From NCBI RefSeq assembly GCF_003751445.1, contig NZ_RJUU01000003.1, positions 558,001-622,000 on the forward strand: a stretch of DNA of 64,000 nucleotides, given 5' to 3'. Position 1 is the first letter of the stretch, and every line of letters begins with the position of its first letter. This stretch comes from Streptomyces sp. 840.1. Lineage in GTDB: Bacteria; Actinomycetota; Actinomycetes; Streptomycetales; Streptomycetaceae. Under the pieces are notes generated by a model. The model searched no databases. It worked only from the letters and a program-made list of their open reading frames with translations, and was not told the DNA's origin. Of this stretch, positions 24,073 through 47,142 are shown piece after piece. A program made the position numbers and the translations under genes.

Positions 24073-24372
24073 CGTGTCGCTCCGTCGTGCCGGGCCCGGC
24101 TGTTGGCCGCTGAACTCGTCGGCGTCCTGCCGGTGTACGGGAATGCGTCGGCCGGGCGCTCGGTGGCGCGTCCGGTCCGCCCGTGCCCAACGAGCGGGCC
24201 GAGCGGCGGAAACGGTGCCGGCAGAGCGCCTGTCCCTCGCCGTCAACCCCGTGCACGAGGTGTCATCCGCGCGACGGGTCCACCGCTGAAGACCGGTTCC
24301 CGAGGCGGTGGGGTGGCTAGCGTGACCCGCTCCGGAGTGCCGCGATCGGTGTCGATGAAGGGTCGTTCAGCC

Positions 24373-25773
24373 ATGCGGAGAACGTGTGTGATCGGAGCGG
24401 GCCCTTCCGGCCTGGCCGCGAGCAAGGTCCTCGCCTCGCGCGGTGTTCCGTTCGACTGCTTCGAGGCCGGTTCGGGCATCGGCGGGCTCTGGCGGTACGG
24501 GAACGACAACGGCATGTCGGGGGTGTACGCGTCGCTGCACACGAACATCTCGAAGGAGAGCATGTCCTTCTCCTCGCTGGCGATGCCGGACACCTACCCG
24601 GTCTTTCCGCACCACAGCAAGGTCCTCGCCTACATGGAGGACTACGCCGCGACGTTCGGCCTGCTCCGCCGCATCACGTTCGGCACGGAGGTCACCTCGG
24701 TGCGGCCGCTGGACGACGGCGGCTGGGAGGTCGCGCACCGGCGCCGAGGGGACACGGCAGCGCAGGTGGAGACGCGGCGGTACACCGAAGTGGTGGTGGC
24801 CAACGGGCACCACTGGAACCCCCGCCTCCCCGATCCCGCCGTGCCGGGGGCCGAGGAGTTCGAGGGGTCCGCCCTCCACTCGCACGACTACCGCACCCCG
24901 GAGGCGTACGCGGGCCGCCGGGTCCTGGTGATCGGCATGGGCAACTCGGCGTGCGAGATCGCGGCGGAGGTCTCCCGGACGGCGGCGCGGACGTTCCTCT
25001 CCGCACGCGACGCGACGCACGTGTTCCCCAAGATGCTGCTCGGCCGGCCTGCGGACCACCTGGTGTGGAGCCCGCTGTCCCGCATCCCTCGGTTCCTCAA
25101 GGGCCCGGCGATGGCGCTTCTCCTGCGCCTGACCCGCGGTGCCCCGGCCCAGTACGGGCTGGCCGAACCGGTCCGCGGGCCCCTCGCCGCCCACCCCTCC
25201 ACCTCGGACGAACTCCTCGTCCAGCTGGCCAGGGGCGCGGTCACTCCCAGACCCGGCGTCAGCTCGTTCGGCCGGGACACGGCAACTTTCACGGACGGCA
25301 GCCAGGAGCCCGTGGACGCCGTGGTGTACGCCACCGGGTACTCCATCTCCTTCCCCTTCCTGGACCCCGGCGTCTTCGCGGCCCGGGGCGGCCGTACGGA
25401 GCTCTATCTGCGCACCGTGCCGCCCCGGCTACCTGGCCTCTACTTCATGGGGCTCGCCCAGCCTGCGGGTGAGGCCTTCCCGTTGCTCGAACCACAGGCC
25501 GAATGGATCGCCGGCCTGATCACCGGAACGATCGCCCTGCCGTCGCAGCAGGACATGACGCGGGCGATCAGCCGCGAGTGGCGGCTCCACGGACGGACGT
25601 ATGCGCCCACCTACCGCCACGGGATCGAAATCGACGTCCGCTCCTACCACCGGGCCCTTCGCCGGGAGCTCCGGGCGGGCGCACGCCGAGCACGCGGGGG
25701 CGTCCCACCCCTGCCCGCGCCGGCCGCGCCCGGTCCCCGCTCCGGTCTCGGTCCGCCAACGGAGGCCACGTGA
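24373..25773 (+). CDS. Flavin-containing monooxygenase (FMO/BVMO-like)
   Basis: 466 residues. FAD motif GAGPSG (8-13), FMO fingerprint FEGSALHSHDY (F-x-G-x3-H-x3-Y), NADPH motif GMGNSA (188-193) and a late TGY motif in DAVVYATGYSISFPF. FMOs oxygenate soft nucleophiles (N or S) or ketones. Start 24373 follows GAAGGG; an ATG at 24355 is an alternative. The C-terminal ~35 residues are Pro/Arg-rich and unconserved. It converges on the wax-ester-synthase-like gene 70 bases away and may tailor the lipid made by the neighbouring synthase, but this is inference from position. Confidence 0.88.
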   Translation: MRRTCVIGAGPSGLAASKVLASRGVPFDCFEAGSGIGGLWRYGNDNGMSGVYASLHTNISKESMSFSSLAMPDTYPVFPHHSKVLAYMEDYAATFGLLRRITFGTEVTSVRPLDDGGWEVAHRRRGDTAAQVETRRYTEVVVANGHHWNPRLPDPAVPGAEEFEGSALHSHDYRTPEAYAGRRVLVIGMGNSACEIAAEVSRTAARTFLSARDATHVFPKMLLGRPADHLVWSPLSRIPRFLKGPAMALLLRLTRGAPAQYGLAEPVRGPLAAHPSTSDELLVQLARGAVTPRPGVSSFGRDTATFTDGSQEPVDAVVYATGYSISFPFLDPGVFAARGGRTELYLRTVPPRLPGLYFMGLAQPAGEAFPLLEPQAEWIAGLITGTIALPSQQDMTRAISREWRLHGRTYAPTYRHGIEIDVRSYHRALRRELRAGARRARGGVPPLPAPAAPGPRSGLGPPTEAT

Positions 25774-25843
25774 TCCGTTCCGCCGCGAACCTCACAGGGT
25801 GCCCGACGGCGAACGCCCGGCCGCGCTCAGACCGGGGCCGCGC

Positions 25844-27223
25844 TCAGGCCGGGGCCGAGCTCTCCTCCAGCTCGCCCACGGCCCGCTCCCACAGCTCCGG
25901 CAGCGACTCCCCCAGCGGCAGGGCGCCGTCGACAACGAAGGACACCTCGGCCCAGTCGCCGAAGAAGGACAGCCCCACACCGAAAAGGTGTCCGGGCACG
26001 AGCAGGGGCAACAGGGCGGTGCCCGTCACCTGCGTCTCCCCCAGGCTCCCCTTCTCGGCCAGCGGCATGGAGGTGGCCATGACGTTGGTGACGCGCGGAG
26101 AGAGCACGCGTCGCAGATACCACTCGGTGGGGCGGCCCGGCATGAAGCGGACGAGGTCCTGAATGGCCTGCCGCCATGCGTCGCCCCGCAACTTGCCTGT
26201 CCTCGCCATCACATGGTCCAGTCGCCGCAGTGAGACGTCACCGTCGCCGGGCCCGTCCGGATCCTTCGACGCGGCCCCCACCGGCAGCTCCAGCGGCACG
26301 GCGAAGCAGCGGTTGCCCCACGTCTGGTCCTCGTCGGGGCGGCGAGCGTCGATGGGCAGCAGGGCCGTCACCCGGGGCAGAGCAACCCCGGCGCGGGCCG
26401 ACCAGTCGGTCAACGCCCCGGCCAGCGCGGCCAGGTGCACATCGTGGGCCGAGCCGCCCCGCGCGGCGCCGATCCGGCGCAGGGTGTCCGCCGGTACCCG
26501 CCCCCGCGCCAGCCGCCTCTCCCCGGAGGGGGTGAAGACGGCGTCCGGGCGGTGTCCCCGTACGGCGAGAGAGCCCGCCGCGAACCTGATGGCGAGCCCT
26601 ACGGCAGCACCCACCCGCCGTGGCACCCCGGCCCGGCGGCTCCGGCCGGGTACCGGGCGCGCCGACGGCTCCCCTTCGCCCAGGATGGCGCGGAAGGTCA
26701 TGGCGGCGGCCGAACCGTCCTGGCAGGCGTGGTGGAAGCGGTAGCAGACGGCGTACGCGTCCGGTTCGTGCCCGTGGATCAGCCACATCCCCCACAGGGC
26801 TCCGGGCTCGAACGGGGCGTTGAGCGCGGTGTGCAGGGCACCGTCCCAGGCGGCGGGGCCGTCGGCGGCCACCTCGTGCACATGCCTGGCGATGTCGAAT
26901 TCCGCGTCCGGCTGCCACTGGGGCCGCCGTCCGCCCTCGACCCTGCTCGTGTGCAGGGGCAGCCCGCCCAGACGGAAGCCCACATACGCTCGGAAGTCCG
27001 CCAGGGCCGGGGGCGGCCCGCTGAGATACGCGACACCGCCGCCGTCCCAGCGGACATCGGGCCGCCGACGCCCCAGGTTGAGGAACGCCCGGTCGACCGA
27101 GTGCGTGGGATGGCGGCGGGGCGACGGAACGAACGGGGCGGACGGCTCGGGCTGAGCGGGCTCGGCGGGTTCAGTGGACTCAGTGGACTCAGTGGACTCA
27201 GTGGGCTGTTCAAGACCGGACAT
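25844..27223 (-). CDS. Wax ester synthase/diacylglycerol acyltransferase (WS/DGAT) family protein
   Basis: 459 residues. The catalytic motif HHxxxDG is intact as HHACQDG (His164, His165, Asp169, Gly170); N-terminal acceptor-side domain (HSVDRAFLNLGRR) and the C-terminal VTNVMATSMPL and GVGLSFFGDW segments complete the two-domain fold. The enzyme joins an activated acyl chain to an alcohol or diacylglycerol. The first 30 residues are a low-complexity TEST/EPAQP tail encoded by a 9-bp tandem repeat. It is divergent from the PUFA-synthase-like operon, making it a good candidate for the acyl-transfer step missing from that synthase. Confidence 0.85.
   Translation of the reverse strand: MSGLEQPTESTESTESTEPAEPAQPEPSAPFVPSPRRHPTHSVDRAFLNLGRRRPDVRWDGGGVAYLSGPPPALADFRAYVGFRLGGLPLHTSRVEGGRRPQWQPDAEFDIARHVHEVAADGPAAWDGALHTALNAPFEPGALWGMWLIHGHEPDAYAVCYRFHHACQDGSAAAMTFRAILGEGEPSARPVPGRSRRAGVPRRVGAAVGLAIRFAAGSLAVRGHRPDAVFTPSGERRLARGRVPADTLRRIGAARGGSAHDVHLAALAGALTDWSARAGVALPRVTALLPIDARRPDEDQTWGNRCFAVPLELPVGAASKDPDGPGDGDVSLRRLDHVMARTGKLRGDAWRQAIQDLVRFMPGRPTEWYLRRVLSPRVTNVMATSMPLAEKGSLGETQVTGTALLPLLVPGHLFGVGLSFFGDWAEVSFVVDGALPLGESLPELWERAVGELEESSAPA
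27172..27207. repeat. 9-bp tandem repeat inside WS/DGAT gene
   Basis: Three exact copies of CAGTGGACT (27172-27198) and a fourth imperfect copy (CAGTGGGCT, 27199-27207). In the minus-strand gene it encodes the Ser-Thr-Glu repeat near the N-terminus. Copy number could vary without breaking the frame. Confidence 0.75.
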
Positions 27224-28126: not shown

Positions 28127-29338
28127 GTGCACGTCGCCCTCACCGGCGCCACCGGATTCCTCGGACTGCGCCTGTTACGTCGCCTGCTCGGCACCCACCC
28201 GACAGTGACGGTCCTGGCCCACGCCGGATCGGACGACGCCCTGCACCGCATCACCCGGTACTTCGAACTGACCGGCTCGCCCGAGGCGTTCATCGCCGAA
28301 CTCCCGCGCCGGCTGCGAGTGGTGGACACCGATCTGGGGCAGCCCCGCCTGGGGCTGTCCGGGCGGGCCTTCCAGGAGCTGGCCGACGGTCTGGGCACGA
28401 TCTGGCACAGTGCGGGCAGCATCAATCTGGAGGGCGATCTCCCCGAGCTGCGCCACATCAACGTCGAAGGCACGCGCCACGTGCTGGAGTTGGCGGCCGC
28501 CGGACACCGGACACCTCTGCTCCGCCACGTGAGCACCGCGTTCGTCGCCGGGTCCCGGCGGGACGGAGTGGCGTACGAGGACGAGCTGGACGACGCCTGC
28601 GGCTTCGAGAACGCCTACGAACGTTCCAAGTACGAGGCGGAGCTGCTGGTACACGCGTGGTCCCGGAAGCACGGCCGCCCGGCCCTGGTCCTGCGGCCGA
28701 GCATCCTGGTCACCGATCTGCCGCCGCACCCCGAACTGCCCTCGCATCCGCTGCTGGTCATCGAGCGGATCCTGCGGGACGCCCGGTGTGCGGCGGAACT
28801 CGCAGAGCCCGCAGAACCCCGGGAACCCGCAGAGTCAGCCCGGCCCGCACAACCGGCTGGGCCCGGCGACCCCGGGCCGGGCGGCCGGCCCCTCGTCCGG
28901 ACGGTGGGGCACCCGCGCGGCCGGCTGAACCTGCTGCAGGTCGATCACGCGGCCGAGGTCATGGTGCGGCTGGCCGGACTGACGCCATCGGGCGGCGTCG
29001 ACACGTACCACGTCGTCCACGACCGCGACGTGCCGGTACCGACGGTCGTGACGCTGCTGGAGCGGCTGGTCCCGCTCTCGATCGACCTGGTCGCCGCCAA
29101 GCCGGAGACCCCGTCGGCGCTGGAGGCCCTGCTGGACTTCTATCCGGGCATGACGGCCTACCTCGCCCACCGGCGGCGGTTCGACGACACCCGGGTCAGG
29201 ACCCGGCTGGGGCCGACGGCGGCGTCGGCCCCGGTGAGCCTCGACTACCTCTGGTCCGGTCTGGCCCCGAGAGGCCGGCCCCTCGCCCCGGCGCCGGGCA
29301 CCGCCCCGGCCGTCCTTCCGTCCGCCCGGTACGCCTGA
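28127..29338 (+). CDS. NAD(P)-dependent acyl (thioester) reductase-like protein
   Basis: 403 residues from GTG 28127 (TTGGAG upstream). Extended-SDR fold of the male-sterility/thioester-reductase (NAD_binding_4) type: GATGFLG at 7-13, IWHSAGSINLEG, HVSTAFVAG, catalytic Tyr164 and Lys168 (YERSK), VLRPSILVTD. Relatives reduce acyl-CoA or acyl-ACP thioesters to aldehydes or alcohols, which would let it release a chain from the synthase encoded next. A Pro/Glu/Ala-rich insert of about 35 residues lies near 225-260. First gene of a four-gene operon (34-base gap to the pfaD-like gene). A non-reductive sugar-epimerase-like role cannot be excluded. Confidence 0.78.
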   Translation: MHVALTGATGFLGLRLLRRLLGTHPTVTVLAHAGSDDALHRITRYFELTGSPEAFIAELPRRLRVVDTDLGQPRLGLSGRAFQELADGLGTIWHSAGSINLEGDLPELRHINVEGTRHVLELAAAGHRTPLLRHVSTAFVAGSRRDGVAYEDELDDACGFENAYERSKYEAELLVHAWSRKHGRPALVLRPSILVTDLPPHPELPSHPLLVIERILRDARCAAELAEPAEPREPAESARPAQPAGPGDPGPGGRPLVRTVGHPRGRLNLLQVDHAAEVMVRLAGLTPSGGVDTYHVVHDRDVPVPTVVTLLERLVPLSIDLVAAKPETPSALEALLDFYPGMTAYLAHRRRFDDTRVRTRLGPTAASAPVSLDYLWSGLAPRGRPLAPAPGTAPAVLPSARYA

Positions 29339-29372
29339 CCAGCAGACGTCCTCTCCCGTTGGAGCCCTTGCC

Positions 29373-30956
29373 GTGTCCGTCCTCGCTCTCCCCGACGCCC
29401 CCGCCGCGTCGCCGCCGGTCTTCTCGCCCGAGGGGATCACGGCCCGTGCCCGGCAGATCCGCAGACCGGTCCACGTCGTCAGTTCGCCGGACGGCCGTGA
29501 GCTGGGGCTCGCGACCGGTCCCGTACCCGGCGGCACGGTGCTCGGCACGCTGCCGCCGCTGTACCCGGAGTGGCTCGGCGGCCGCACCTTCTGCGAGGCG
29601 CACGGCGTCCGCTTCCCCTACGTCGCGGGCGAGATGGCGAACGGCATCGCGACCACCCGGATGGTCGCGGCGATGGCGCACGCGGAGATGCTCGGCTTCT
29701 TCGGGGCGGGCGGGCTGGCCTACCCCGAGGTGGAACGGGGCGTGCACGCGCTCGCGCGGGAGCTGGAATCCCGCGACAACTGGGGCGTCAACCTCATCCA
29801 CTCCCCGGCCGAGCCGGAACTCGAGTTCCGGGTGGCCGAGTTGCTGGTGGACGCCGGTGTCCCGCGGATCTCCGCATCGGCGTTCATGGAGCTGACCCCG
29901 GCGGTCGTGCTGTGCTCCGCGCACGGGCTGCGCCGGGACGCGGCGGGCGCAGTCGTCCGGCGCACACGGCTGCTCGCCAAGGTCTCCAGGCCCGAGGTGG
30001 CCGAGCGGTTCCTCTCCCCCGCCCCGCCCGTACTGCTGGACCATCTCGTCGCCCGGGGGAAGCTGACCCGGCAGGAGGCGGATCTGGCGGCCCTGGTGCC
30101 GGTGGCCGAGGACATCACGGTGGAGGCGGACAGCGGCGGGCACACCGACAACCGGCCGCTGCAGGCCCTGCTGCCGAGGATCGCGGCCCTGCGCGACGAG
30201 CTGTGCCGCCGGTTCGGCTACCCCCGGCCGGTCCGCCTCGGCGCGGCGGGCGGCCTCGGCACACCGGACGCGGTGGCCGCCGCGTTCGCGCTCGGCGCGT
30301 CCTACGTCGTCACCGGGTCGGTGAACCAGACGGCCGTCGAGTCGGGCCTGTCCGACGAGGCGAAGGCGATGCTCTGCGACGCGGACATCGCCGATGTGGC
30401 CATGGCACCGGCGGCCGACATGTTCGAGCTGGGCGTGAAACTGCAGGTCCTCGCCCGAGGCACGATGTTCGCCCAGCGGGCCGCCCGGCTCCACGCCGCC
30501 TACCGGGCCCACGGTTCGCTGGAGGAGATCCCGCCCGCACTGCGGACCCGGATCGAACGCGACGTGCTGCGTGCCCCGTTCGACGAGGTCTGGCAGCGCA
30601 CCCGCGCGTTCTGGGAGCAGCGCGATCCTGCGGAGATCGCCCGTGCTCAGGCCGACCCGAAGCACCGCATGGCTCTGGTCTTCCGCTGGTACCTGGGGAG
30701 TTCCAGCCGGTGGGCGATCACCGGTGAGGCCTCGCGGCGGACCGACTACCAGATCTGGTGCGGTCCGGCGATGGGCGCGTTCAACCGGTGGGTGGCCGGG
30801 ACGTTCCTGGCCGAGCCGGCAAACCGGTCCGTGGTGCAGATCGCGCTCAACCTGCTCGAAGGGGCTGCGGTACTCACCCGTGCCCATCAACTGCGCACCT
30901 ACGGGGTCCCCTTGACGGCCGAGGCGTTCAGTTACCCGCCGCGCGGGCTGGCATGA
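29373..30956 (+). CDS. pfaD: PfaD-type trans-acting enoyl reductase of a PUFA-like synthase
   Basis: 527 residues, GTG start. FMN-dependent TIM-barrel of the nitropropane-dioxygenase type characteristic of PfaD: VAGEMANGIATTRMVAAMAHA, MLGFFGAGGL, WGVNLIHSP, VPRISASAFMELTPAVV, EADSGGHTDNRP, AAGGLGTPDAVAAAFALGASYVVTGSVNQ. It ends with the typical C-terminal helical part (FRWYLGSSSRWAITGEASRRTDYQIWCGPAMGAFN is spread over about 440-480). PfaD reduces enoyl-ACP intermediates on the synthase. The stop overlaps an in-frame ATG of the megasynthase, so the genes are coupled. Confidence 0.93.
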   Translation: MSVLALPDAPAASPPVFSPEGITARARQIRRPVHVVSSPDGRELGLATGPVPGGTVLGTLPPLYPEWLGGRTFCEAHGVRFPYVAGEMANGIATTRMVAAMAHAEMLGFFGAGGLAYPEVERGVHALARELESRDNWGVNLIHSPAEPELEFRVAELLVDAGVPRISASAFMELTPAVVLCSAHGLRRDAAGAVVRRTRLLAKVSRPEVAERFLSPAPPVLLDHLVARGKLTRQEADLAALVPVAEDITVEADSGGHTDNRPLQALLPRIAALRDELCRRFGYPRPVRLGAAGGLGTPDAVAAAFALGASYVVTGSVNQTAVESGLSDEAKAMLCDADIADVAMAPAADMFELGVKLQVLARGTMFAQRAARLHAAYRAHGSLEEIPPALRTRIERDVLRAPFDEVWQRTRAFWEQRDPAEIARAQADPKHRMALVFRWYLGSSSRWAITGEASRRTDYQIWCGPAMGAFNRWVAGTFLAEPANRSVVQIALNLLEGAAVLTRAHQLRTYGVPLTAEAFSYPPRGLA

Positions 30957-31012
30957 GCGGGACCGGCGCCGACGCGGCGCCGGCAAGGACAGCCCGAACC
31001 GGAGGAGAGACC

Positions 31013-34000
31013 GTGCCCGCCCCACCCCACCGCCAGGTCCCGGTCGCCGTGGTCGGCGTCGGGGCCCTGGTGCCCGGCGCGACGGACGCGGCCGGCTACT
31101 GGCGGATCGTGACCGGTGGCCGCGACCTGATGACCGATGTTCCCGCCTCGCGCTGGAGCGTGGCGGACCACTACGACCCGGACCCGGCCGCGCCCGACAA
31201 GACGTACGCCCGCCGGGGCGCCTTCCTCCCCGAGGTGGACTTCGACCCGATGGCCTACGGGGTTCCCCCCGCCAATCTGCCGACGACGGACACCTCCCAG
31301 CTGCTCGCCCTGATGGTCGCCGACCAGGTACTGAAGGACGCCGGTGGTCCGGCCGGGGTGGACCGGGACCGGACCGGGGTCGTCCTCGGGGCCGCCGCGC
31401 TGGAACTGCTTCCGCACATGTACGGGCGCGCCCAGCGCCCGGTGTGGCTCGCGGCGCTGCGGGAGGGCGGACTCGGTGAGAGCGAGGCGCAGGCCGTGTG
31501 CGACCGCATCTCGTCCCGCTTCGCACCGTGGCGGGAATCGACCTTCCCCGGGCTGCTGGGCAATGTCGTAGCGGGCCGGATCGCCAACCGGTTCGATCTG
31601 CACGGCATCAACCACACCACCGACGCCGCCTGCGCCAGTTCACTGGCGGCCCTGTCGACATCGGTCGCCGAGCTGTCCCTCGGCCGGGCCGACCTGGTGA
31701 TCAGCGGAGGCGTCGACACCGGGAACGACATCGGCATGTTCCTGTGCTTCTCCAAGACCCCCGCGCTCTCCCCCAGCGGTGACTGCCGGCCCTTCTCGGC
31801 CGACGCCGACGGCACCATGCTGGGCGAAGCGGTCGTCATGTACGCGTTGAAGCGGCTGTCCGACGCGGAACGGGACGGCGACCGGATCCACGCGGTGATC
31901 CGCGGCATCGGCACGTCCTCCGACGGCAGGAGCACGGCGATCTACGCCCCGCTCCCCGACGGCCAGGCGCGGGCGCTGCGACGCGCCTACGAGCAGGCGG
32001 GCTACGGGCCGGAGACCGTGGAACTGGTGGAAGCGCACGGAACCGGCACGAAGGCCGGAGACACCGCCGAACTGGCGGCGCTCACCGAGGTGTTCGGCGC
32101 TTCGGGCCGTAGGGACGGCCAGTGGTGCGCCATCGGATCGGTCAAGTCGCAGATCGGCCACACCAAGTGCGCCGCAGGCGCGGCGGGACTGCTCAAGGCC
32201 GTCATGGCCCTGCACCACAAGGTGCTGCCGCCGACCGTGAAGGTCGACCGGCCGAACCCGGCGGCCGCCGCTGCGGACGGCCCGTTCTACGTCAACACCG
32301 AGACCCGCCCGTGGGTTCGGCCCGCCGGGCATCCGCGCCGGGCGTCGGTGTCGAGCTTCGGTTTCGGCGGCAGCAACTTCCACGTCACGCTGGAGGAGTA
32401 CGCGCCCCGGGGGGCCGGGGGCCGGGCGGCTCTGCGCCACCGCTCCGCCCCGAGCGAGCTCGTCCTGTTCAGTGGCGACTCCCTGTCGGACCTCGTGGCG
32501 CCGCGTGCCGGCGAGGACCGTCCGCTGGCCGCGCTGGCCCGGGAGAGCCACAGCTCCTTCGCGTCCACTGCCCGGATGCGGCTGGCCGTCGTCGCCACGG
32601 ATGCCGAGGACCTGCGGGAGAAGCACGCGCAGGCGGTCGCGCTGATCCGGCGGCAGCCCGGCTCCGCGTTCTCGACGCCCGCCGGTGTCCGGTACGCGTG
32701 CGGGGACGCCGAGCCCGGCCGCATCGGCTTCCTGTTCCCGGGGCAGGGTTCCCAATACGTCGGGATGGGAGCCGGTCTCGCGATGCTGGCGCCGGGCGCG
32801 CAGGCCGTCTGGGACCGGCTGGGCGGCACCCGCTTCGACGGACTGCCCCTGCACCGGGCCGTGTTCCCGCCGCCTGCCTTCACCGATGATGAGCGGGCGG
32901 CCCGGCGGGCCCTGCTGGACGCCACCGAATGGGCGCAGCCCGCGCTGGCGGTGCACGCCCTCGCGCTGCTGGAGGTGGTGCGGGAGCTGGGGCTGCGGCC
33001 GGACTGCGTGGCCGGTCACAGCTTCGGCGAGCTGGTGGCGCTGCACTGCGCGGGTGTCATGGACGCCGGTTCGCTGGTGGATCTGGCCCGGCGCCGCGGT
33101 GAGCTGATGCGCGACGCGGCGGTCACCCCGGGCGGGATGCTGGCGGTGGCGGCGGACCGTTCGCACGTGGCCGGGGTACTGGCCGGCGGCGGGTTCGGTG
33201 ACATCTGGCCGGCCAACCACAACTCCCCTCGCCAAGTCGTTCTTTCGGGGACGTCGGAGGCGGTCGCGCGGGCCGAGGAGGCGCTGTCGGCCGACGGGAC
33301 CGCAACCCGCCGGCTGGCGACGTCGACCGCCTTCCACAGCCCGCTCGTCCGGCCGGCCGTCGAGCCGCTCGCCGGTTACCTGCGCACGGTGCCGCTCACG
33401 GAACCCCGGATCGAGGTCTACGGAAACGCGGACGCGGCGCCCTACCCGTCAGCGCCCGACGAGGTGCGCGACCGGATCGCCGCCCATATCGCCTCCCCGG
33501 TGCTCTTCCAGGACCAGATCGAGGCCATGTACGCGGCGGGCGTGCGGACCTTCGTCGAGGTAGGCGCCGGGGCCGCGCTGACCGGCCTGGTCGGGCAGAT
33601 CCTCGGCAACCGCTCGCACACGGCCGTTGCGCTGGACCGGCCGGCCCGGTCCGGCGCCGACACCCTGCACACCGCGCTCGGCGAACTCGCCGTACGCGGC
33701 GTCCCCCTCGACCTCGACACCCTCTGGGCGCCGTACGCCCACGAGAGCCCAGCGAAGGAGCACGAGCCCCGAATGACCGTGAAGATCAGCGGAGCCAACT
33801 GCGGTCAGTTCCCTCCGGCGGGCGCCGCGTCCGCCGGGCCGTCGCCCGCTGCGGCGGACGGTCCCGAACGCGGGCCCCGGCCCGCCTCCGTACACGTATC
33901 CGCGTCCGACACCCCGGCGGCCCCCATGCCCGCGTACATCCCCTCTCCGGTCCACGCCCCGCAGCCGTCGCAGGTCCCGGCGGCACCCGTGTCCTGGCAG

Positions 34001-37000: not shown

Positions 37001-37129
37001 GTGCGGTGTGTGGTGCGGGGCCGCAAGGCGCACGACACCGGGGCGCGCTGCGACGCGGCGCTCATCGACGCGGACGGGTCCGTCCGGCTGGAACTGATCG
37101 GTGTCGAGCTCGTCCGCCGCCCCTCCTGA
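31013..37129 (+). CDS. PUFA-synthase-like megaenzyme I: KS-AT-ACP-KR-DH
   Basis: 2038 residues from GTG 31013, chosen for the ideal GGAGGAG at 31001-31007; ATG 30953, overlapping the pfaD-like stop, is the alternative. Order: ketosynthase (1-~450; Cys207 in DAACASS, His342 in EAHGTG, then KSQIGHTKCAA), malonyl-type acyltransferase (~560-880; GQGSQYVGMG, Ser670 in GHSFGE), Pro/Ala linker, a single ACP (Ser1191 in LGVDSIKRVEIL), ketoreductase (~1495-1740; ATGGARGV) and a C-terminal hotdog dehydratase with His1796 in HAPAGVPVLP (HxxxGxxxxP). DSIKRVEIL and the domain order are those of PfaA/myxobacterial Pfa2. Only one ACP is present, while PUFA synthases usually have several. Confidence 0.93.
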   Translation: MPAPPHRQVPVAVVGVGALVPGATDAAGYWRIVTGGRDLMTDVPASRWSVADHYDPDPAAPDKTYARRGAFLPEVDFDPMAYGVPPANLPTTDTSQLLALMVADQVLKDAGGPAGVDRDRTGVVLGAAALELLPHMYGRAQRPVWLAALREGGLGESEAQAVCDRISSRFAPWRESTFPGLLGNVVAGRIANRFDLHGINHTTDAACASSLAALSTSVAELSLGRADLVISGGVDTGNDIGMFLCFSKTPALSPSGDCRPFSADADGTMLGEAVVMYALKRLSDAERDGDRIHAVIRGIGTSSDGRSTAIYAPLPDGQARALRRAYEQAGYGPETVELVEAHGTGTKAGDTAELAALTEVFGASGRRDGQWCAIGSVKSQIGHTKCAAGAAGLLKAVMALHHKVLPPTVKVDRPNPAAAAADGPFYVNTETRPWVRPAGHPRRASVSSFGFGGSNFHVTLEEYAPRGAGGRAALRHRSAPSELVLFSGDSLSDLVAPRAGEDRPLAALARESHSSFASTARMRLAVVATDAEDLREKHAQAVALIRRQPGSAFSTPAGVRYACGDAEPGRIGFLFPGQGSQYVGMGAGLAMLAPGAQAVWDRLGGTRFDGLPLHRAVFPPPAFTDDERAARRALLDATEWAQPALAVHALALLEVVRELGLRPDCVAGHSFGELVALHCAGVMDAGSLVDLARRRGELMRDAAVTPGGMLAVAADRSHVAGVLAGGGFGDIWPANHNSPRQVVLSGTSEAVARAEEALSADGTATRRLATSTAFHSPLVRPAVEPLAGYLRTVPLTEPRIEVYGNADAAPYPSAPDEVRDRIAAHIASPVLFQDQIEAMYAAGVRTFVEVGAGAALTGLVGQILGNRSHTAVALDRPARSGADTLHTALGELAVRGVPLDLDTLWAPYAHESPAKEHEPRMTVKISGANCGQFPPAGAASAGPSPAAADGPERGPRPASVHVSASDTPAAPMPAYIPSPVHAPQPSQVPAAPVSWQPEPGPASEAGAPPGSWGGDGVDGSWYAAVESVQRQTAQAHAACQRMLTDSHIAFLRMTETTLAAMLGAPRTGGAADLPAHPASDPRTGGDLDAPVPPAPLPLPRSSSPRPVPVPVPEPVPVVSPAPPVPAAQAVRVVRAAAPAPVAAPAPADGPAPLSPSELEELLLSVVARLTGYPAAMLNMDMELEADLGVDSIKRVEILSVMRREVPDVGAGDISRLGKLRTLREIVDALTDGAPVASGPTAPEATDPPEPPGTTAVTESSTNTTNTTATASALPAPRTGSGERTPLTRLVPRTVESPPSGLATAGLLDGPVVVTDGGTGGSAMAGLVARKLTERGVDATVAAEVPSQAYGVIHLGALTADPTPDGAREVHLSALRAARAVSAARTAGGGGLFVTVQDTGGDFGLGGGEPGRAWLGGVAGLARTAAKEWPDASVKVIDCRRGGRDDEEVAAAVVRELFEGGADPEAGLRADGTRTLLRLVPGRVTPGGAPRISSDSVIVATGGARGVTAAALLDLARAHRPRIVLLGRTEPAAEPAGLTTATDEPALTRLLAERSTPDAAGVSPARIAERAREILAAREVRATVAGLEAAGSPVRYIRVDARDADALAAALRDVRETWGPVTGLVHGAGVLADRRIADKTDEQAESVMSTKVDGLRALLAATADDPLDTICLFSSVAAVFGNPGQSDYAMANEVLHQVASAEQARRPGCLVRCVAWGPWQGGMVTPALAAHFGRSGVPLIPLDQGASACTAELDGAAGDARVVLTAGDDPAALSPAGEPRQAQMTVRSDTLPQLADHAPAGVPVLPVALVLNWFTAAATAWLPDPGQLVLRDLRVYRTFSLPELPGEGHRITLLGSRGAPGAFPELEAELLGEDGQAHFRAVLDAGEGEPDAAAWNTPEGLKPLSRAESYDGKVLFHGPRFQVLRSVRGVSQHGAEATVAGLRALGWAGEHWPLDPAAVDGALQLALLWGEEVLGAATLPMAVAECRVHRRGPVDGTVRCVVRGRKAHDTGARCDAALIDADGSVRLELIGVELVRRPS

Positions 37130-37179
37130 CCGCACCCGGCCCCGGCCTCCGCCCTGCCGTGAAGTGAAGTGAGACCCGC

Positions 37180-40100
37180 ATGCCTGTCGAACCCATCGCC
37201 GTCGTCGGCCGGGGCTGCGTGCTGCCCGGTGCGCTCGATCCGGACACGTTCTGGGAGAACATCGCCGCCGGCCGCCTGAGCCTGTCGGCCGCACCCGCTG
37301 ACCGGTGGCGGCTGCCGCGCCAGTGGGCGATGGGCTCGGTGGACGACCACCTCGACCGCACCTGGACCGATGTCGGCGGGTACGTCCGCGGGTTCGCATC
37401 GGTCTTCGATCCGGGCGGCTTCCTGATCGCCCCGGAGCGGATCGCGTCGCTGGACCCGCTCTTCCACTGGGTGCTGTACGGGGTCCGGCAGGCGCTCACC
37501 GAGGCGGGCCGCTCCGGCCCGTTGCCGCGCGGGGGGCTGGTGCTGGGGAACCTGTCGTATCCCACGCCCGCCGGGGCGGCCTTCGCCGAGCACGTCTGGC
37601 TGTCGGCGCAGCGCCCCGCTCTCCGGGACGCCCTGCTGAGCGGTGAGCGCGGTGCGCGCCCCGACGCCCGTAACCGCTTCTCCTCCGGGCTGCCCGCCCG
37701 GCTCGCCGCCCAGGCGCTCGGCCTCGGCGCCGGGGCGTGGTCCCTCGACGCCGCCTGCGCGTCCTCGTTGTACGCGATCAAGCTGGCGTGCGACCGGCTG
37801 CACGACGGCACGGCCGACCTGATGGTCGCCGGCGCGGTGAGCCGCCCCGACCCGCTCTACCTCCACGTGGGGTTCTGCGGGCTGTCCGCGACCAGCCGCA
37901 CCGGGCGCAGCCGCCCCTTCCACCGGGACGCGGACGGGCTGGTGCACGGCGAGGGCGCCGGCTTCGTCGCCCTGATGCGGCTGTCCGAGGCGCGCGCCGC
38001 CGGTGTGCCGGTGCTCGGCGTGATCCGCGGCGTCGGGCTGTCCAACGACGGGCGTGGTTCGGGTCTGATCAGCCCGTCGGAGGAGGGCCAGGTACGGGCG
38101 ATGCGGCTGGCGTACGACGTCGCGGGGGTCCCTCCCGAGTCGGTGTCGCTCGTGGAGTGCCATGCGACAGGGACGCCGGTCGGTGACGCGGTGGAGGCGC
38201 GCGGCATGGCCCGGGTCTTCGGGGCGGCGGACGACGTGCCGATCGGTTCGGCGAAGTCGAACGTCGGGCACCTGCTGGCCTCGGCGGGCGTGGCGGGGCT
38301 GTTGAAGGTGCTCGGCGCGATGCGCGCGGGGGTCCGCCCGGCGACGCTCGGCGCGCAGCAGCCGCTGGACGCGCTGTCGGGTACCCCGTTGCGGCTGCTG
38401 TCCGCTGCGGAGGAGTGGACGGGGCAGCGGCGGGCCGCGGTGAGCGCGTTCGGGTTCGGCGGTACCAACGCCCACCTGATCGTCGACCCACCGGACGCCG
38501 TTCCCGTGTCCGCGGCCCGGCACGGCGGCAGGGCCGAGCGGGTACCGGTGGCGATCGTGGCCGTCGGCGCCCGGGTCGGCGAGGGCACGTCCGCCGAGGA
38601 TCTGCGCCGGGCGGTGCTGGGTGGTGAACGGCGCGGCCCCGTCACGGAGATCCCCGTTGAGCTGCCGGGCCTGTGCTTCCCGCCGCTGGCCCTGGAGCGG
38701 GCCGTGCCCCATCAGCTCCTGGTGCTGGAGGCGGCCCGGGAGGCCGTACGGGGGGTGAGCCTGCCCCGCGAGCGGACCATGGTGGTCATCGGAACCGGGG
38801 TGGACCCCCAGGTGGCCCGCGCGGGTGCCCGCTGGCGGGTGCCGTTCTGGCTGGAGCGGTCGGGCGTGCACGTCACCGGCGCCTCGGCGGATTCCGCCCG
38901 GGGGGCGTTCACTCCCCCGATGACGGCGGAAGGGGTGGTGGGCAGCATGCCGAACCTCGCGGCGAACCGCATCAGCACCCAACTTGACCTGGCGGGCCCC
39001 GGGTTCACGGTCTCCGCCGAGGAGGCCTCCGGGCTGATCGCACTGGAGCTCGCGGCGCGGGCCATCCGTTCGGGTGAGGCCGACGCCGCTCTCGTCGGTG
39101 CCACCGACCTGTCCTGCGAGGCCGTCCACCGGGCTGCTCTGCGGGAGCTCGGCCACCGGGACGAGCCCGGGGACGCGGCCGTCGTCCTGGTCCTCAAGCC
39201 CCTGGCGGCCGCCCGCAGGGACGGCGACACCGTGGTGGCCCTGCTGGACGAGGGTGCCGCCGGGGAACCCGACATGGTCATCGGGGACGGCCCGGACGCG
39301 GTGTTCGACCCGTCGTCGGTCTTCGGGCGCGCCCATGCCGCGTCCGGCCTGGTCTCCGTCGCGGTCGCGGCACTCTCCCTCCAGCACCGCGCGGTGCCCC
39401 GCCCCGGCGGGCCCGCGGACGCCGGAGCCTTCGCCCGGACGGCGCGGGCGGTGGCGCTGCCGCTGGAAGGGCCGGCCGCGAGCGTACGGCTGCGCGCGGG
39501 GGACGTCCTGCCGTGGCTGCGGGGCACGGCTCCGCGCCTGCACGTCTTCTCCGGGGCCGATCGTCAGGAGGTGCTGGCCGCGCTGGACTCCGGTACGCGT
39601 TCCTCGGCCGGCCCGGCCCGCCTCGCGCTCCTTGCCGACGGGGACACCGTGCCGGCCGGCCGCAGGGAAGCCGCCCGCCGCTGGCTGGCGGAGGGCGGGG
39701 CCCGCCCCGCCGACCTGCTGTACCGGGACGGTCCGGTCGGCGGGCAGACCGCCTTCGTCTACACGAACGGCTCGGCCGCCTACCCGGGTATGGGCCATGA
39801 GCTGATGCTCGCCCTGCCGTCGCTGGGCGAGGCGGTGCGGGAGGGGCACCGCGAGATGACCGCCCGGCTGCGGTCCGGGCCGGAGCCGGGTGTCCTCGGG
39901 CAGATCTGGGCCGCCGCCGAACTGGCGGTCTCCCACACCGTGCTCAGCCGCGACCTGCTCGGGCTGCGGCCGGACGCCGCGCTCGGGTACTCATCGGGCG
40001 AGTCGACGGCGCTGGTCGCGCTGGGGGCCTGGCCTGACTCCGCGGGGCTGTTCGAGGCCGTCCGGGCCAGTGGTCTGTTCACGACCGAACTCACAGGTGA

Positions 40101-43100
40101 GCTGCGGGCGGTCCGGCGTTACTGGCGGCAGCGGGGGATCCAGGGCTCGCGGTGGTCGAGCTATCTGGTCGGAGCACCGCTGGAGACCGTCCGGGCGCAG
40201 ATCGCGGCGGACGCCTCGGTCCACCTGCTGGCGGTGAACGCGCCCGGTGTCTGCGTCATCGGCGGCGAGTCGGTGGCGTGTGCGGCGGCCGTGGCCAGGA
40301 TCGGCGCCGACCGGGCGATCGAGCTGGACTACGACCTGGCGGCCCACGCACCGGAGCTGGCCGAGGTCGCGGAGGTGTGGCGCGAGGTCCACCGCCGTCC
40401 CACGGTCGAGGTGCCCGGGGTGCGGTTCTACAGCGGGGCCACCGGGCGGGCGTACCGGCTGACGGAGGAGCGGGCCGCCGAGGCGATCACCGCCCAGGGG
40501 CTCGGCACGATCGACTTCGCGGCCACGGTCGAGCGGGCGTGGGCGGACGGCGTCCGGGTGTTCGTGGAGCACGGGCCCCGGAGACTGTGCACCGGCTGGA
40601 TCAAGCGGGTGCTCGGCGACCGGGAACACGTGGCCGTCGCGCTGGACGCCTCCGAGGACACCGGGCTGCGGCAGCTGTGCCTCGCGGTCGGCGAACTCGT
40701 CGTCGCCGGAGTGCCGGTGCGGGCGGACGCGCTGTTCGCCCGGCTCGCCGAGGCCTCGGGCCGGCTCGCGCCGCCCGGCCCCACCGTCACCATCGCCGTA
40801 CCCCCGACCCCGTGCCTGCCTCCCCTGGAGCGTGCCGTGACCGTTCTGCCCCGGGCGCCCGAGCTGGCCCCCGTACCGGACCGGAGCCCCGTCCTGCGCG
40901 GCGCCTTCCCCGCCGGGGCCGGCGTCGCCGTACCCGCGCCCTCCTCCCCCGCAACCTCCCGCGCTCGTGCGGCAAGTGCGGCGGGAGCCGGGGCGTTGGC
41001 CGCCCTGCACGCGCTTCACGTCGCCGAGCTGCACCAGGAGGTGATGGCCGCGCACACCGAGGCTCATCAACGGTTCCTGCGGGTGTCGGCACTCGCCGTC
41101 CAGGCACTGACCACCGCCGGCAGGCCGGCAACCGGGCCCCGCGAAGCGGACTTGATCCCAACGGGATCCCCCAGGCTGGTGGCCGGGCCGACCGAGCCCG
41201 GCCCGGTCCCGGCGAGAGACCTCAGGCCGGGGCCGAAGTTCGACCGCGCCCAGCTGGAGCACCTCGCCTCCCGCGAGGTCTCCGCGCTGTTCGGGCCGCG
41301 CTTCGCCGAACAGGACGGGTACCCGGTACAGACCCGGATGCCCGGACCGCCCATGCTGTTCGCCGACCGGGTCACCGGCATCGACGCGGTGCCGGCGGCG
41401 CTGACGATGGCAGGTCCGGTGCGCACGGACGGGACGATCTGGACGGAGACCGACGTCCTGCCCACCAGCTGGTACCTGGACTCCACGGGGCGCATGCCCG
41501 CCGGCGTACTGATCGAGGCGGGCCAGGCCGATCTGCTCCTGCTCAGCTGGCTGGGCGTCGACCTCCTGAACCGGGGCGAGCGCGCCTACCGGCTGCTCGG
41601 CTGCGAGGTGACGTTCCACGGCACCCCGCCCGAGGCGGGCGACACCCTGTGCTTCGAGATTCATGTCGACGGCCACGCGGAGGCCGACGGTGTGCGGCTG
41701 GCGTTCTTCCACTACGACTGTTACGTGGACGGCGAACTGCGGCTGAGCGTCCGCGAGGGCCAGGCCGGGTTCTTCACCCCGGCGGAACTCGCCGGCAGCG
41801 GCGGTGTCCGCTGGGACCCCGCCGAGCACGCGCCCGCTGACGGCCTGCCGCTCGACCCGCCGGCCGTGCGCTGCGTGCTGTCCCGCTTCGGGCCCGACCG
41901 GTTGCTGGCCCTGGCGCAGGGCCGCCCGGCGGACTGCTTCGGGCCCGGCTGGGAGTCGACGGCTGCCCACGTACGCACGCCTGCGCTGGACGAGAGCCGA
42001 CTGCGGCTGCTGGACGAGGTCGTCGCGTTCGACCCCGCCGGAGGACCGTGGGGGCGCGGGTATCTGCGCGCCGAGACCGCGCTCTCGCCCGACGACTGGT
42101 TCTTCACCGGGCATTTCAAGAACGACCCCTGTATGCCGGGCACTCTGATGCTCCAGGGCGGTCTCCAGGCGATGGCGTTCTACCTGACGGCCATGGGCTA
42201 CACGGTCGACCGGGACGGCTGGCGCTTCGAACCGGTCACCGATCACCCCTCCAGTGCGATGTGCCGGGGCCAGGCGACGCCGGAGGGCCGACGGGTCGTC
42301 TACGAGCTGTTCGTCACGGGCGTCTGCGGCGGACCGGTGCCGACGCTGTACGCGGACGTCCTGGGCTCGGTGGACGGGACGAAGGCGTTCCTGGGCCGCG
42401 GCATGGCGCTCCGGCTGGTCCCCGACTGGCCGCTGTCGCACTGGCGGCACTCGGGCCCGCCCGCCGTGCAGTCCGGCGGCGCCCCGGTGCCCCTGGCACG
42501 GCTCGCCGGGATGGCCGGGCACCGGGAGGAGAAGCCGGTGGCTGTGGCGGCCGACGGGTTCCCCTTCGACTACGCCTCGCTGCTGGCCTGCGCCTGGGGC
42601 CGGCCGAGCGAGGCGTTCGGCGCCATGTACGAGCCGTTCGACGGCACCCGCAGGGTGGCCCGGCTCCCCGGCCCGCCGTACCACTTCATGAGCCGGATTG
42701 TGTCGGTGGAGGGGCCGCAGGCCGGAATGCGGGAGGGCAGTGTCGTCGTCGCCGAGTACGACGTGCCGGACCGGGTCTGGTACTTCGAGGAGAACGGCGG
42801 CCGCGCCATGCCGTTCGCCGTCCTGCTGGAGATCGCGCTGCAGCCCTGCGGGTGGCTTGCCTCGTACGTGGGCAGCGCGCTGACCGGCGGGACGGACCTG
42901 CTGTTCCGCAACCTCGACGGATCGGGAACGGTCACCGGCGAGGTCACTCCGGCGACCCGTACCGTCCGTACCAGGGCGGAGCTGACGCGCGTCTCGCGCA
43001 GCGGAGACATGATCATCGAGTCGTTCCGGGTGGAGTGCACGGCCGACGACGTACCGGTGTACGAACTCACCACGGTCTTCGGCTACTTCCCGCGTTCGGC

Positions 43101-43686
43101 CTTCGACGACCAGCAGGGCCTGCCGACTTCGGCGGACGAGCGGGCCCGGCTCGACGAGCCCTGCGGGCACACCGTCGATCTGACCGCCCGCCCCGCCCGC
43201 TACTGCGCCGGGGAGCCGCGTCTGCCGGGCCCGATGCTGTTGATGCTGGACCGGATCACGGGTTACTGGCCGGACGGGGGAAGCGCGGGGCTCGGCCGGC
43301 TGCGGTCGGAGAAGGACGTGCGCGCGGACGCCTGGTTCTTCCGGGCGCACTTCTTCCAGGACCCGGTCCAACCGGGCTCGTTGGGCATCGAAGCCATGTG
43401 CCAGCTCCTCCAGTACCACCTGCTCGAACGCGGCGCGGCCGACGGCGTCCCCGCCGCCGGGTTCGAGCCGGTGCTGCCCGGTCACGAGACGGCCTGGACA
43501 TACCGGGGCCAGATCACCCCGGCGAACCGGCTGATCCGGGTGGACATGGACATCGTGGCGAGCGGCACGGACGAGCGGGGGCCCTACGCCGTGGCGGACG
43601 CCTCGCTGTGGGGCGACGACACGTGCATCTACCGCGTGCGGGGCCTGGGCATGCGGGTGGTGCCGGGGGCGGGGCGCATGCCCTGA
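37180..43686 (+). CDS. PUFA-synthase-like megaenzyme II: KS-CLF-AT-DH-DH
   Basis: 2168 residues. Ketosynthase (1-~430; Cys193 in DAACASS, ECHATGTP, SNVGHLLASAG), then a KS-like chain length factor (~450-780) whose active Cys is replaced (SAEEASG, about 612-618), an acyltransferase-like domain (~860-1190; NGSAAYPGMG, Ser938 in GYSSGES with Tyr for the usual His), an Ala-rich linker and tandem FabA-type hotdog dehydratases (~1370-2160; His1645 in GHFKNDPCMPGTLM, His2057 in AHFFQDPVQPGS). This is the layout of PfaC/myxobacterial Pfa3, but without the C-terminal AGPAT acyltransferase. Repeated dehydration with FabA-like domains is what creates cis double bonds or polyenes. Last gene of the operon; 50 bases separate it from megaenzyme I. 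Confidence 0.92.
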   Translation: MPVEPIAVVGRGCVLPGALDPDTFWENIAAGRLSLSAAPADRWRLPRQWAMGSVDDHLDRTWTDVGGYVRGFASVFDPGGFLIAPERIASLDPLFHWVLYGVRQALTEAGRSGPLPRGGLVLGNLSYPTPAGAAFAEHVWLSAQRPALRDALLSGERGARPDARNRFSSGLPARLAAQALGLGAGAWSLDAACASSLYAIKLACDRLHDGTADLMVAGAVSRPDPLYLHVGFCGLSATSRTGRSRPFHRDADGLVHGEGAGFVALMRLSEARAAGVPVLGVIRGVGLSNDGRGSGLISPSEEGQVRAMRLAYDVAGVPPESVSLVECHATGTPVGDAVEARGMARVFGAADDVPIGSAKSNVGHLLASAGVAGLLKVLGAMRAGVRPATLGAQQPLDALSGTPLRLLSAAEEWTGQRRAAVSAFGFGGTNAHLIVDPPDAVPVSAARHGGRAERVPVAIVAVGARVGEGTSAEDLRRAVLGGERRGPVTEIPVELPGLCFPPLALERAVPHQLLVLEAAREAVRGVSLPRERTMVVIGTGVDPQVARAGARWRVPFWLERSGVHVTGASADSARGAFTPPMTAEGVVGSMPNLAANRISTQLDLAGPGFTVSAEEASGLIALELAARAIRSGEADAALVGATDLSCEAVHRAALRELGHRDEPGDAAVVLVLKPLAAARRDGDTVVALLDEGAAGEPDMVIGDGPDAVFDPSSVFGRAHAASGLVSVAVAALSLQHRAVPRPGGPADAGAFARTARAVALPLEGPAASVRLRAGDVLPWLRGTAPRLHVFSGADRQEVLAALDSGTRSSAGPARLALLADGDTVPAGRREAARRWLAEGGARPADLLYRDGPVGGQTAFVYTNGSAAYPGMGHELMLALPSLGEAVREGHREMTARLRSGPEPGVLGQIWAAAELAVSHTVLSRDLLGLRPDAALGYSSGESTALVALGAWPDSAGLFEAVRASGLFTTELTGELRAVRRYWRQRGIQGSRWSSYLVGAPLETVRAQIAADASVHLLAVNAPGVCVIGGESVACAAAVARIGADRAIELDYDLAAHAPELAEVAEVWREVHRRPTVEVPGVRFYSGATGRAYRLTEERAAEAITAQGLGTIDFAATVERAWADGVRVFVEHGPRRLCTGWIKRVLGDREHVAVALDASEDTGLRQLCLAVGELVVAGVPVRADALFARLAEASGRLAPPGPTVTIAVPPTPCLPPLERAVTVLPRAPELAPVPDRSPVLRGAFPAGAGVAVPAPSSPATSRARAASAAGAGALAALHALHVAELHQEVMAAHTEAHQRFLRVSALAVQALTTAGRPATGPREADLIPTGSPRLVAGPTEPGPVPARDLRPGPKFDRAQLEHLASREVSALFGPRFAEQDGYPVQTRMPGPPMLFADRVTGIDAVPAALTMAGPVRTDGTIWTETDVLPTSWYLDSTGRMPAGVLIEAGQADLLLLSWLGVDLLNRGERAYRLLGCEVTFHGTPPEAGDTLCFEIHVDGHAEADGVRLAFFHYDCYVDGELRLSVREGQAGFFTPAELAGSGGVRWDPAEHAPADGLPLDPPAVRCVLSRFGPDRLLALAQGRPADCFGPGWESTAAHVRTPALDESRLRLLDEVVAFDPAGGPWGRGYLRAETALSPDDWFFTGHFKNDPCMPGTLMLQGGLQAMAFYLTAMGYTVDRDGWRFEPVTDHPSSAMCRGQATPEGRRVVYELFVTGVCGGPVPTLYADVLGSVDGTKAFLGRGMALRLVPDWPLSHWRHSGPPAVQSGGAPVPLARLAGMAGHREEKPVAVAADGFPFDYASLLACAWGRPSEAFGAMYEPFDGTRRVARLPGPPYHFMSRIVSVEGPQAGMREGSVVVAEYDVPDRVWYFEENGGRAMPFAVLLEIALQPCGWLASYVGSALTGGTDLLFRNLDGSGTVTGEVTPATRTVRTRAELTRVSRSGDMIIESFRVECTADDVPVYELTTVFGYFPRSAFDDQQGLPTSADERARLDEPCGHTVDLTARPARYCAGEPRLPGPMLLMLDRITGYWPDGGSAGLGRLRSEKDVRADAWFFRAHFFQDPVQPGSLGIEAMCQLLQYHLLERGAADGVPAAGFEPVLPGHETAWTYRGQITPANRLIRVDMDIVASGTDERGPYAVADASLWGDDTCIYRVRGLGMRVVPGAGRMP

Positions 43687-43753: not shown

Positions 43754-43784
43754 TTGAGTCTCCAGTCGGGGGAGACGTCAGGAT
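43754..43784 (+). promoter_or_regulatory. MerR-type promoter and operator
   Basis: -35 TTGAGT (43754-43759) and -10 CAGGAT (43779-43784) separated by 19 bp, the long spacer typical of MerR-controlled promoters. The spacer contains GTCTCC-N7-GGAGAC (43758-43776), a perfect 6-bp inverted repeat. The -10 box is 7 bases before ATG 43792, so the message is probably leaderless and autoregulated. Confidence 0.65.
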
Positions 43785-43791
43785 GAGGGGC

Positions 43792-45731: not shown

Positions 45732-45739
45732 CCGCCCGG

Positions 45740-47140: not shown

Positions 47141-47142
47141 GG

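Follow-up and report, generated by a model that had tools for sequence, protein, structure and literature searches.

What does a streptomycete make with a polyunsaturated fatty acid (PUFA) synthase-type gene cluster that is accompanied by a reductase and an acyltransferase of its own? The question is raised by a stretch of 64,000 nucleotides from Streptomyces sp. 840.1 (the window; assembly GCF_003751445.1, contig NZ_RJUU01000003.1, positions 558,001 to 622,000), whose genome comprises 8.84 Mb in 4 contigs. Gene families in the window were assigned with Pfam and NCBIfam profiles. All the genes named in a preliminary description of this DNA were present and in the order it gave: a stand-alone thioester reductase (TR), PfaD, PfaA and PfaC form a single-strand row with gaps of 50 bases or less, and a gene of the wax ester synthase/diacylglycerol acyltransferase (WS/DGAT) family is divergent from them (Table 1). 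We think it fairly likely that these genes specify an iterative secondary lipid synthase of the published Type L, from which the TR would reduce the chain off the acyl carrier protein (ACP) and the WS/DGAT-family enzyme would esterify the product. The synthase itself is not new; what distinguishes it is a TR that is conserved in streptomycete Type L clusters, with a WS/DGAT gene added in one streptomycete clade.

In the proposed scheme, PfaA, PfaC and PfaD, whose domains were observed, would assemble a long chain carried by the one ACP of PfaA. The TR, acting in trans, would release this chain from the PfaA ACP thioester by reduction, as an aldehyde or alcohol. The WS/DGAT-family enzyme would then join the released alcohol and an acyl donor into a wax-ester-like neutral lipid. 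Release by the TR is likely in view of its family, active-site motifs and conserved position, and esterification is probable because the WS/DGAT gene co-occurs with the TR. A locus with both a reductase and an ester-making enzyme probably yields a long-chain alcohol or wax-like ester, not an ordinary omega-3-type fatty acid. The adjoining ATP-binding cassette (ABC) transporter pair and flavin monooxygenase (FMO)-like gene may serve as optional export and tailoring genes.

The TR starts with a GTG at 28127 that is preceded by TTGGAGCC, and the PfaD start is likewise preceded by TTGGAGCC. TR and PfaD are separated by 34 bases, PfaD and PfaA overlap by four bases (ATGA), and 50 bases lie between PfaA and PfaC; the starts of the divergent WS/DGAT and TR genes are about 903 bases apart. 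The TR protein contains the motifs TGATGFLG and YERSK, and no ACP match was found in it by the Pfam scan. In a 16-row alignment (A1), residues S136, T137, Y164 and K168, aligned to MxaA, were invariant and the TGATGFLG columns mostly near-invariant. MxaA (4u7w) was also the best solved relative of the TR family alignment (E 2e-43).

Conservation was followed in a scan of GTDB genomes with PfaD, from which the best 80 of 231 confirmed loci were used and each searched for the other proteins of the window; these loci are related, not independent. A TR was scored when on the same strand at most 600 bases upstream of PfaD, and a WS/DGAT gene when on the opposite strand beyond the TR, in the 66 loci whose sequence extends 4 kb or more ahead of PfaD; ABC and FMO counts refer to the 60 loci in which it extends 9 kb or more. 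It was found that a TR lies upstream of PfaD in 35 of the 66 loci. It stands directly before PfaD in all 32 loci with a PfaD identity of at least 70%, all of them from Streptomyces or Actinacidiphila, and also in loci of Frankia and Parafrankia, while three loci from Kibdelosporangium and Rhodococcus (69.3–69.98%) have none. The WS/DGAT gene was present in 25 of the 66 loci; all 25 belong to the set of 32 and all 25 carry the TR. The synteny of the two genes with the pfa-like genes, on which the preliminary description had made its proposal depend, was thus borne out. Six of the seven loci in the set of 32 that lack the WS/DGAT gene gave none in a wider tblastn search with nine WS/DGAT-family queries. 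In the seventh, L028, an assembly gap of 100 N falls at the expected site of the gene (L028:7902-8001), and L028 was for this reason withdrawn as a candidate case of gene loss. Both genes occur in S. violaceorubidus (L042), which we take to be a close relative of S. coelicolor; in the latter, SCO0123 is presumably a WS/DGAT gene. The ABC gene was found upstream in 17 of the 60 loci, each of them one of the 23 that carry the WS/DGAT gene, and an FMO match in 13, of which 12 are WS/DGAT-bearing (some matches partial) and the remaining one, L075, is weak and in a TR-less locus.

Similarly, in a draw of 150 genomes of the genus, 41 of which had PfaD at E ≤1e-60, a TR was seen beside PfaD in the four other genomes with a PfaD identity of at least 80% (G053, G116, G118, G147) and in G133 (64%), and not in G060 (65%) and G048 (66%). 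A WS/DGAT gene of at least 70% identity was found in this draw only in G000, G053, G116, G118 and G147; two of these, G116 and G147, have it near the edge of a different contig. In a PfaD tree of 73 rows, from which eight short or cut loci were omitted, the 38 streptomycete TR rows clustered with weak support (82/75). All 27 WS/DGAT rows fall in an inner clade of 32 rows (98/87), of which the remaining five are unscorable (four cut contigs and L028 with its gap). The sister group of this clade consists of six TR-only rows with a whole synthase. TR rows of Frankia, Parafrankia and S. morookaense were placed elsewhere in the tree, which suggests that the TR either is wider than the streptomycete group or has moved. 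The Frankia-type loci (L212, L213, L214 and others) have the order TR-PfaD-PfaA, with no PfaC match in the up to about 3 kb read past PfaA, and the second half of PfaC had no better match in the genome of Frankia L063 than a partial one (31%). They likely correspond to the published Type M.

The catalytic parts of the synthase were then compared with those of PUFA synthases. Motifs are intact in PfaA for the ketosynthase (KS; DAACASS and EAHGTGT), the acyltransferase (AT; GHSFGE), the ACP (GVDSIK), the ketoreductase (KR) and the dehydratase (DH) of polyketide synthase (PKS) type (HAPAGVPVLP), and the single GVDSIK motif means one ACP. PfaC has an intact KS, a chain length factor (CLF) with Glu at the KS Cys position, and an AT with GYSSGE, whose Acyl_transf_1 match of 31.7 bits is marginally below the cut-off of 32.7. 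Each of these PfaA and PfaC motifs is given here the function that we take it to have. The two FabA-like DHs of PfaC read HFKNDPCMPGTLMLQ (DH1) and HFFQDPVQPGSLGIE (DH2); the Gln of the His/Gln pair in DH1 and the Glu of the His/Glu pair in DH2 align with the FabA Asp after the HF..DPVMPGCLGL stretch. The KS-CLF-AT-DH-DH architecture of the preliminary description stands for the domains, with the correction that the catalytic acid of DH1 is Gln. No DH4 and no AGPAT was detected at the PfaC C-terminus by a tblastn domain test.

Statements on published work refer here to passages of the papers cited. The PUFA DH active site is predicted to consist of His with Asp or Glu (PMC9667614), and in the window this pair is lacking in DH1. 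Replacing the Asp or Glu by Ala in either DH1 or DH2 of Emiliania gave a non-functional domain, and in the Thraustochytrium synthase the DH1 mutant was without docosahexaenoic acid (DHA) and the DH2 mutant made it (PMC9667614). By analogy, DH1 of the window PfaC may be impaired, the mutants in these passages being to Ala and not to Gln. Tandem ACPs, two to nine in number, have been described as what defines marine PUFA synthases (PMC3585217); the window PfaA has one.

To place these features, the C-terminal part of PfaC was examined in 38 named loci, 25 TR-bearing and 13 TR-less, and put to the tblastn test. DH1 had Gln in all 24 TR-bearing loci with a readable motif (none was found in L058); among the TR-less loci Glu was found in ten, Asp in one and Gln in one (L056), and no motif in L040. 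The DH1 Gln thus travels with the TR, whereas a single ACP is common in the actinobacterial branch. A single ACP was counted in each of the 34 whole PfaA frames from TR-bearing loci. It was also counted in 15 of the 23 whole TR-less frames (seven have 2–4 and one has zero), and the single ACP was rejected as a marker of the TR clade. Of six whole PfaA frames from non-actinobacterial genomes, five have 2–4 ACPs (L050, L052, L057, L068, L083) and L067 has one; AGPAT is present in four of these six genomes and is preceded by DH4 in two of the four. DH4, a second PKS-type dehydratase ending PfaC, was named in Minicystis rosea, and together with the FabA-like DHs it strongly altered the product of hybrid synthases (PMC6731297). 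By tblastn, DH4 matched in G133 and throughout the six-member TR-only sister group, and the 18 named loci of the WS/DGAT clade that were read, L028 among them, gave no match; the DH4 of L035 was detected by the same method. Lack of DH4 as a peculiarity of the WS/DGAT clade was rejected, as L058, with TR and no WS/DGAT gene, is also without a match; the TR-less loci L048, L050, L061, L066, L068 and L083 likewise gave none. AGPAT, which has been proposed to terminate the chain in myxobacterial PUFA synthases (PMC8436480), matched in none of the 25 TR-bearing and in four of the 13 TR-less loci (L050, L052, L057, L068), a test that covered PfaC loci, so that a separate AGPAT gene may lie elsewhere in these genomes. 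A motif match in L053 was not confirmed by tblastn.

Because of the DH1 Gln and the absence of DH4, the double bonds are probably fewer or otherwise placed than in eicosapentaenoic acid (EPA) or DHA, and a canonical EPA/DHA-type chain would be less likely given the DH1 Gln. These results bear on the explanation that the locus is an ordinary PUFA synthase delivering an EPA-like fatty acid into phospholipids, with the TR and WS/DGAT protein as side activities or neighbours. PfaA and PfaD do exceed the cut-offs of the canonical PUFA models (TIGR02813 and TIGR02814), although the PfaD model is unspecific alone, being over cut-off in one of 14 control genomes. The S. coelicolor relative has been published as an EPA cluster, a label kept in later papers (PMC7324645, PMC6414726, PMC5932044), but PUFA production in S. 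coelicolor was undemonstrated as of 2011 (PMC3098273). One ACP would still allow a PUFA, since ACP number altered the yield and not the product profile in engineered synthases (PMC5067506). A DH1 Gln in every one of the 24 TR-bearing loci that could be read speaks against a standard PUFA, as a DH1-mutated synthase gave no DHA (PMC9667614), and so does the retention of the TR in 32 of 32 close clusters; the single ACP and the lack of DH4 argue the same more weakly. We therefore regard this explanation as quite unlikely.

The WS/DGAT-family protein matched its profile over nearly the full length. The preliminary description had called its HHxxxDG motif intact, which holds for the window protein (HHACQDG); among relatives the first His varies, and the second His, Asp and Gly are kept (H165, D169 and G170 are invariant in nine of nine aligned family rows). 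The enzyme itself could be the main release factor, taking the acyl group from ACP or CoA and transferring it to diacylglycerol or a different acceptor, while the TR would have another substrate or serve a minor branch. Such a role would fit the preservation of HxxxDG in the nine aligned family members and the properties of the principal S. coelicolor WS/DGATs, which use long-chain acyl-CoA, and of SCO0958, whose acceptor is diacylglycerol (PMC5539140). It fits poorly with the 10 of 35 TR-bearing loci that have no WS/DGAT gene (L028 among them being the gap), when none of the 25 WS/DGAT-bearing loci is without a TR, and with the position of the TR inside the synthase row and of the WS/DGAT gene outside it. 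We consider this role improbable.

Release by the TR in trans can also be examined away from PfaD. The genus draw contained a TR match in 18 genomes, in 12 of them away from PfaD, and nine of these 12 loci were fetched. A WS/DGAT-family gene adjoined the TR or was one gene off in four of the nine (L135, L144, L145 and L148; the pairing in L144 was found by tblastn and a family scan), and the other five gave no WS/DGAT match by tblastn. A rough estimate of chance adjacency within 2 kb, for ten genes in 8.5 Mb, is about 0.5% per locus. L148 and L149 have a KS-AT-DH-ER-KR-ACP synthase (ER, enoyl reductase) with a methyltransferase stretch and no thioesterase match; large type I PKS proteins were found in L144 and L147 with NCBIfam, and one in L142 by BLAST only. 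In L144:7983-19406 and L148:2143-12335, a large type I PKS, a TR and a WS/DGAT-family gene are contiguous, with no PfaD. Stand-alone TR relatives thus recur next to synthases, and the two synthases that were checked have no release domain, which supports release in trans. In addition, L145:6474-11978 holds an uncharacterised small cluster in which an aromatic ammonia lyase, a single KS, a TR and a WS/DGAT-family gene are contiguous.

Several findings weigh against the reduction and esterification that we propose. The TR scored 129.3 bits, below the TIGR01746 cut-off of 213.35, and the WS/DGAT protein 113.6 bits against the TIGR02946 cut-off of 309.95, which makes it a distant member. The six-row sister group has the TR and no WS/DGAT gene, which indicates that the TR does not need the latter. 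In a class draw of 394 genomes, only two of the 19 strong TR loci (at least 296 bits), the window and G524, had a WS/DGAT neighbour; 18 of the 19, all but G412, were read. The lack of AGPAT is weak evidence, as nine of the 13 TR-less loci are also without it, and to our knowledge marine PUFA synthases have no AGPAT either. A class-wide TR–WS/DGAT pair was rejected, none being seen outside Streptomyces among the matches listed for the 394 genomes (four candidates were scored per genome, so that misses are possible). The TR-bearing cluster of G524 has a second WS/DGAT-family gene adjoining the first (L211:6788-7966, + strand).

Since the score of the WS/DGAT protein is so far under the TIGR02946 cut-off, its acceptor may be other than a long-chain alcohol. 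The reduced aldehyde or alcohol might then serve, for example, a glycolipid or an FMO-tailored metabolite, with the WS/DGAT-family protein acylating another head group. This low score, the unconserved first active-site His, the frequent company of FMO and ABC genes, and the precedent of HglB, which ends in glycolipids (PMC8064123), are all consistent with such a use. On the other side, the only solved relatives of the family alignment at E ≤0.01 were 7nxg and 6chj, both named as WS/DGAT class, and nothing else. We hold this use to be possible but rather doubtful, and prefer esterification of the released alcohol.

Among known systems, the window comes closest to the Type L secondary lipid synthases of Shulse and Allen (2011), which include SCO0124-0129 of S. 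coelicolor A3(2) (PMC3098273). The likeness extends to a pfaD at the 5' end ahead of pfaA, a fused pfaBC with KS, CLF, two DHs and an AT (the last just under its cut-off in the window) and a streptomycete host, and the idea that the locus is new to streptomycetes was not upheld. The two differ in the order of the last domains, given as KS-CLF-DH2-AT for Type L and KS-CLF-AT-DH-DH in the window, and in the TR and WS/DGAT genes, neither of which is mentioned for Type L in the passages of that paper. The gene order was confirmed as that of myxobacterial Pfa1-3 (Aetherobacter, Minicystis), ER / KS-MAT-ACP-KR-DH / KS-CLF-AT-DH-DH (MAT, the AT of that scheme), and synteny between myxobacterial and streptomycete pfa genes had already been noted (PMC8436480). 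In comparison with Pfa1-3, the window has one ACP, no AGPAT and no DH4, and adds the TR and WS/DGAT genes. Nine ACPS-family (phosphopantetheinyl transferase) matches were found in the genome, none of them inside the window; in Aetherobacter and Sorangium, pfaE is at a separate locus (PMC8436480).

A TR is not new to the PUFA-synthase superfamily, contrary to what had been supposed. The heterocyst glycolipid synthase (Type F) belongs to the superfamily and has a thioester reductase of its own, HglB, an ACP-thioester reductase required for heterocyst and akinete glycolipids whose enzyme activity is described as unexplored; akinetes without these glycolipids have poor stress tolerance (PMC8064123). 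Type F has no pfaC DH domains (PMC3098273), whereas the window has DH1 and DH2 in PfaC, a TR without an ACP and a WS/DGAT gene, and so falls outside that type. Zeamine and fabclavine polyamino-alcohol synthases also pair a PUFA-synthase-like enzyme with a thioester reductase, but add an aminotransferase and join a non-ribosomal peptide synthetase (NRPS)-PKS product (PMC13291983, PMC12964715); no aminotransferase or NRPS was present among the genes scanned at 20.3–49.9 kb of the window. The Streptomyces pfa-like PKS-NRPS hybrids (Clade V) share pfaD, pfaA and a fused pfaBC with two DHs, and differ in their coupled PKS and NRPS modules and metallophore-type product, with TR and WS/DGAT unnamed in the passages of that paper (PMC13291983). 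Compared with the WS/DGAT family at large (TIGR02946, PF03007), what sets the window protein apart, besides its score, is a type I iterative synthase as genomic partner. A literature search that covered subscription papers only in small part gave, among the entries listed, no publication on a TR or a WS/DGAT gene accompanying a PUFA-type cluster of streptomycetes.

Streptomycete Type L clusters have long been listed as EPA or PUFA clusters, and the passages of the cited papers show no product. The conserved TR, the loss of the DH1 acid and the confinement of the WS/DGAT gene to a DH4-less clade predict another lipid class, and the lipids to expect are reduced, neutral and possibly esterified rather than membrane fatty acids. 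If this is true, reduction and esterification would join the known ways in which PUFA-synthase chains are handed over (AGPAT transfer, glycolipid and polyamino-alcohol routes), and the reductase and acyltransferase could be used as a pair for unusual wax esters. By analogy, published S. coelicolor data, the one source for this point, suggest expression around sporulation. A bolder and frankly speculative extension is that many Streptomyces make an as yet unseen lipid of spores or aerial mycelium: a partly unsaturated long-chain alcohol, formed on a one-ACP synthase and released by a TR in trans, would be stored or exported as a wax ester, as a functional counterpart of Azotobacter cyst lipids and of the glycolipids of heterocysts and akinetes. 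The EPA label of the S. coelicolor cluster would then be wrong, and the reductase–acyltransferase pair would serve other iterative Streptomyces synthases without a release domain.

Table 1. Predicted genes of the synthase locus and its upstream flank (positions in the window)
Feature	Position	Strand	Profile evidence
ABC transporter permease, accessory	22604..23461	-	ABC2_membrane_3, E 2.8e-4, under its cut-off
ABC transporter ATPase, accessory, candidate exporter	23458..24246	-	PF00005, 95 bits
Flavin monooxygenase-like (FMO-like), optional tailoring gene	24373..25773	+	PF00743, 281 bits, scanned from 24388
WS/DGAT-family O-acyltransferase	25844..27223	-	PF03007, 36.1 bits (cut-off 23.6); HHACQDG
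Stand-alone thioester reductase (TR)	about 28127..29338	+	PF07993, 152 bits, scanned from 27893
PfaD-type enoyl reductase	29373..30956	+	TIGR02814, 675 bits (cut-off 449)
PfaA-type KS-AT-ACP-KR-DH	30953..37129	+	TIGR02813, 1163 bits (cut-off 1010), scanned from 30758
PfaC-type KS-CLF-AT-DH1-DH2	37180..43686	+	two ketoacyl-synt and two FabA stretches (Pfam)

A counterpart of the permease is found at the matching position in G118, G053, G524, L012 and L024, that is, in several WS/DGAT-bearing clusters. Another candidate lipid exporter, an MMPL-family transporter, lies directly 3' of PfaC in the L034 genome (L226:2016-4283, + strand), which has a TR and no WS/DGAT gene. Rfam and tRNA scans of the window gave no matches.

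Downstream of PfaC, the window has a MerR-family regulator of 311 aa just 3' of the gene (43783-44718, + strand), matched at E ≤1e-30 in 83 of the 150 genus genomes, followed by a row (44967-48231, + strand) of an MfnB-type (5-formylfuran-3-yl)methyl phosphate synthase homologue over its NCBIfam cut-off, an aldehyde dehydrogenase and a zinc alcohol dehydrogenase. The regulator, the MfnB-like gene and the two dehydrogenases were rejected as members of the synthase cluster, as other genes follow PfaC in G118 and G053. After this row comes a leucine carboxyl methyltransferase-family gene (48288-49346, - strand), and the row and the methyltransferase could possibly be a small furan-forming cluster. 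An EF-hand calcium-binding motif protein is encoded at 49405-49938 (- strand). An MfnB-like gene is also found 3' of PfaC in the nearest relative, L005 (L232).

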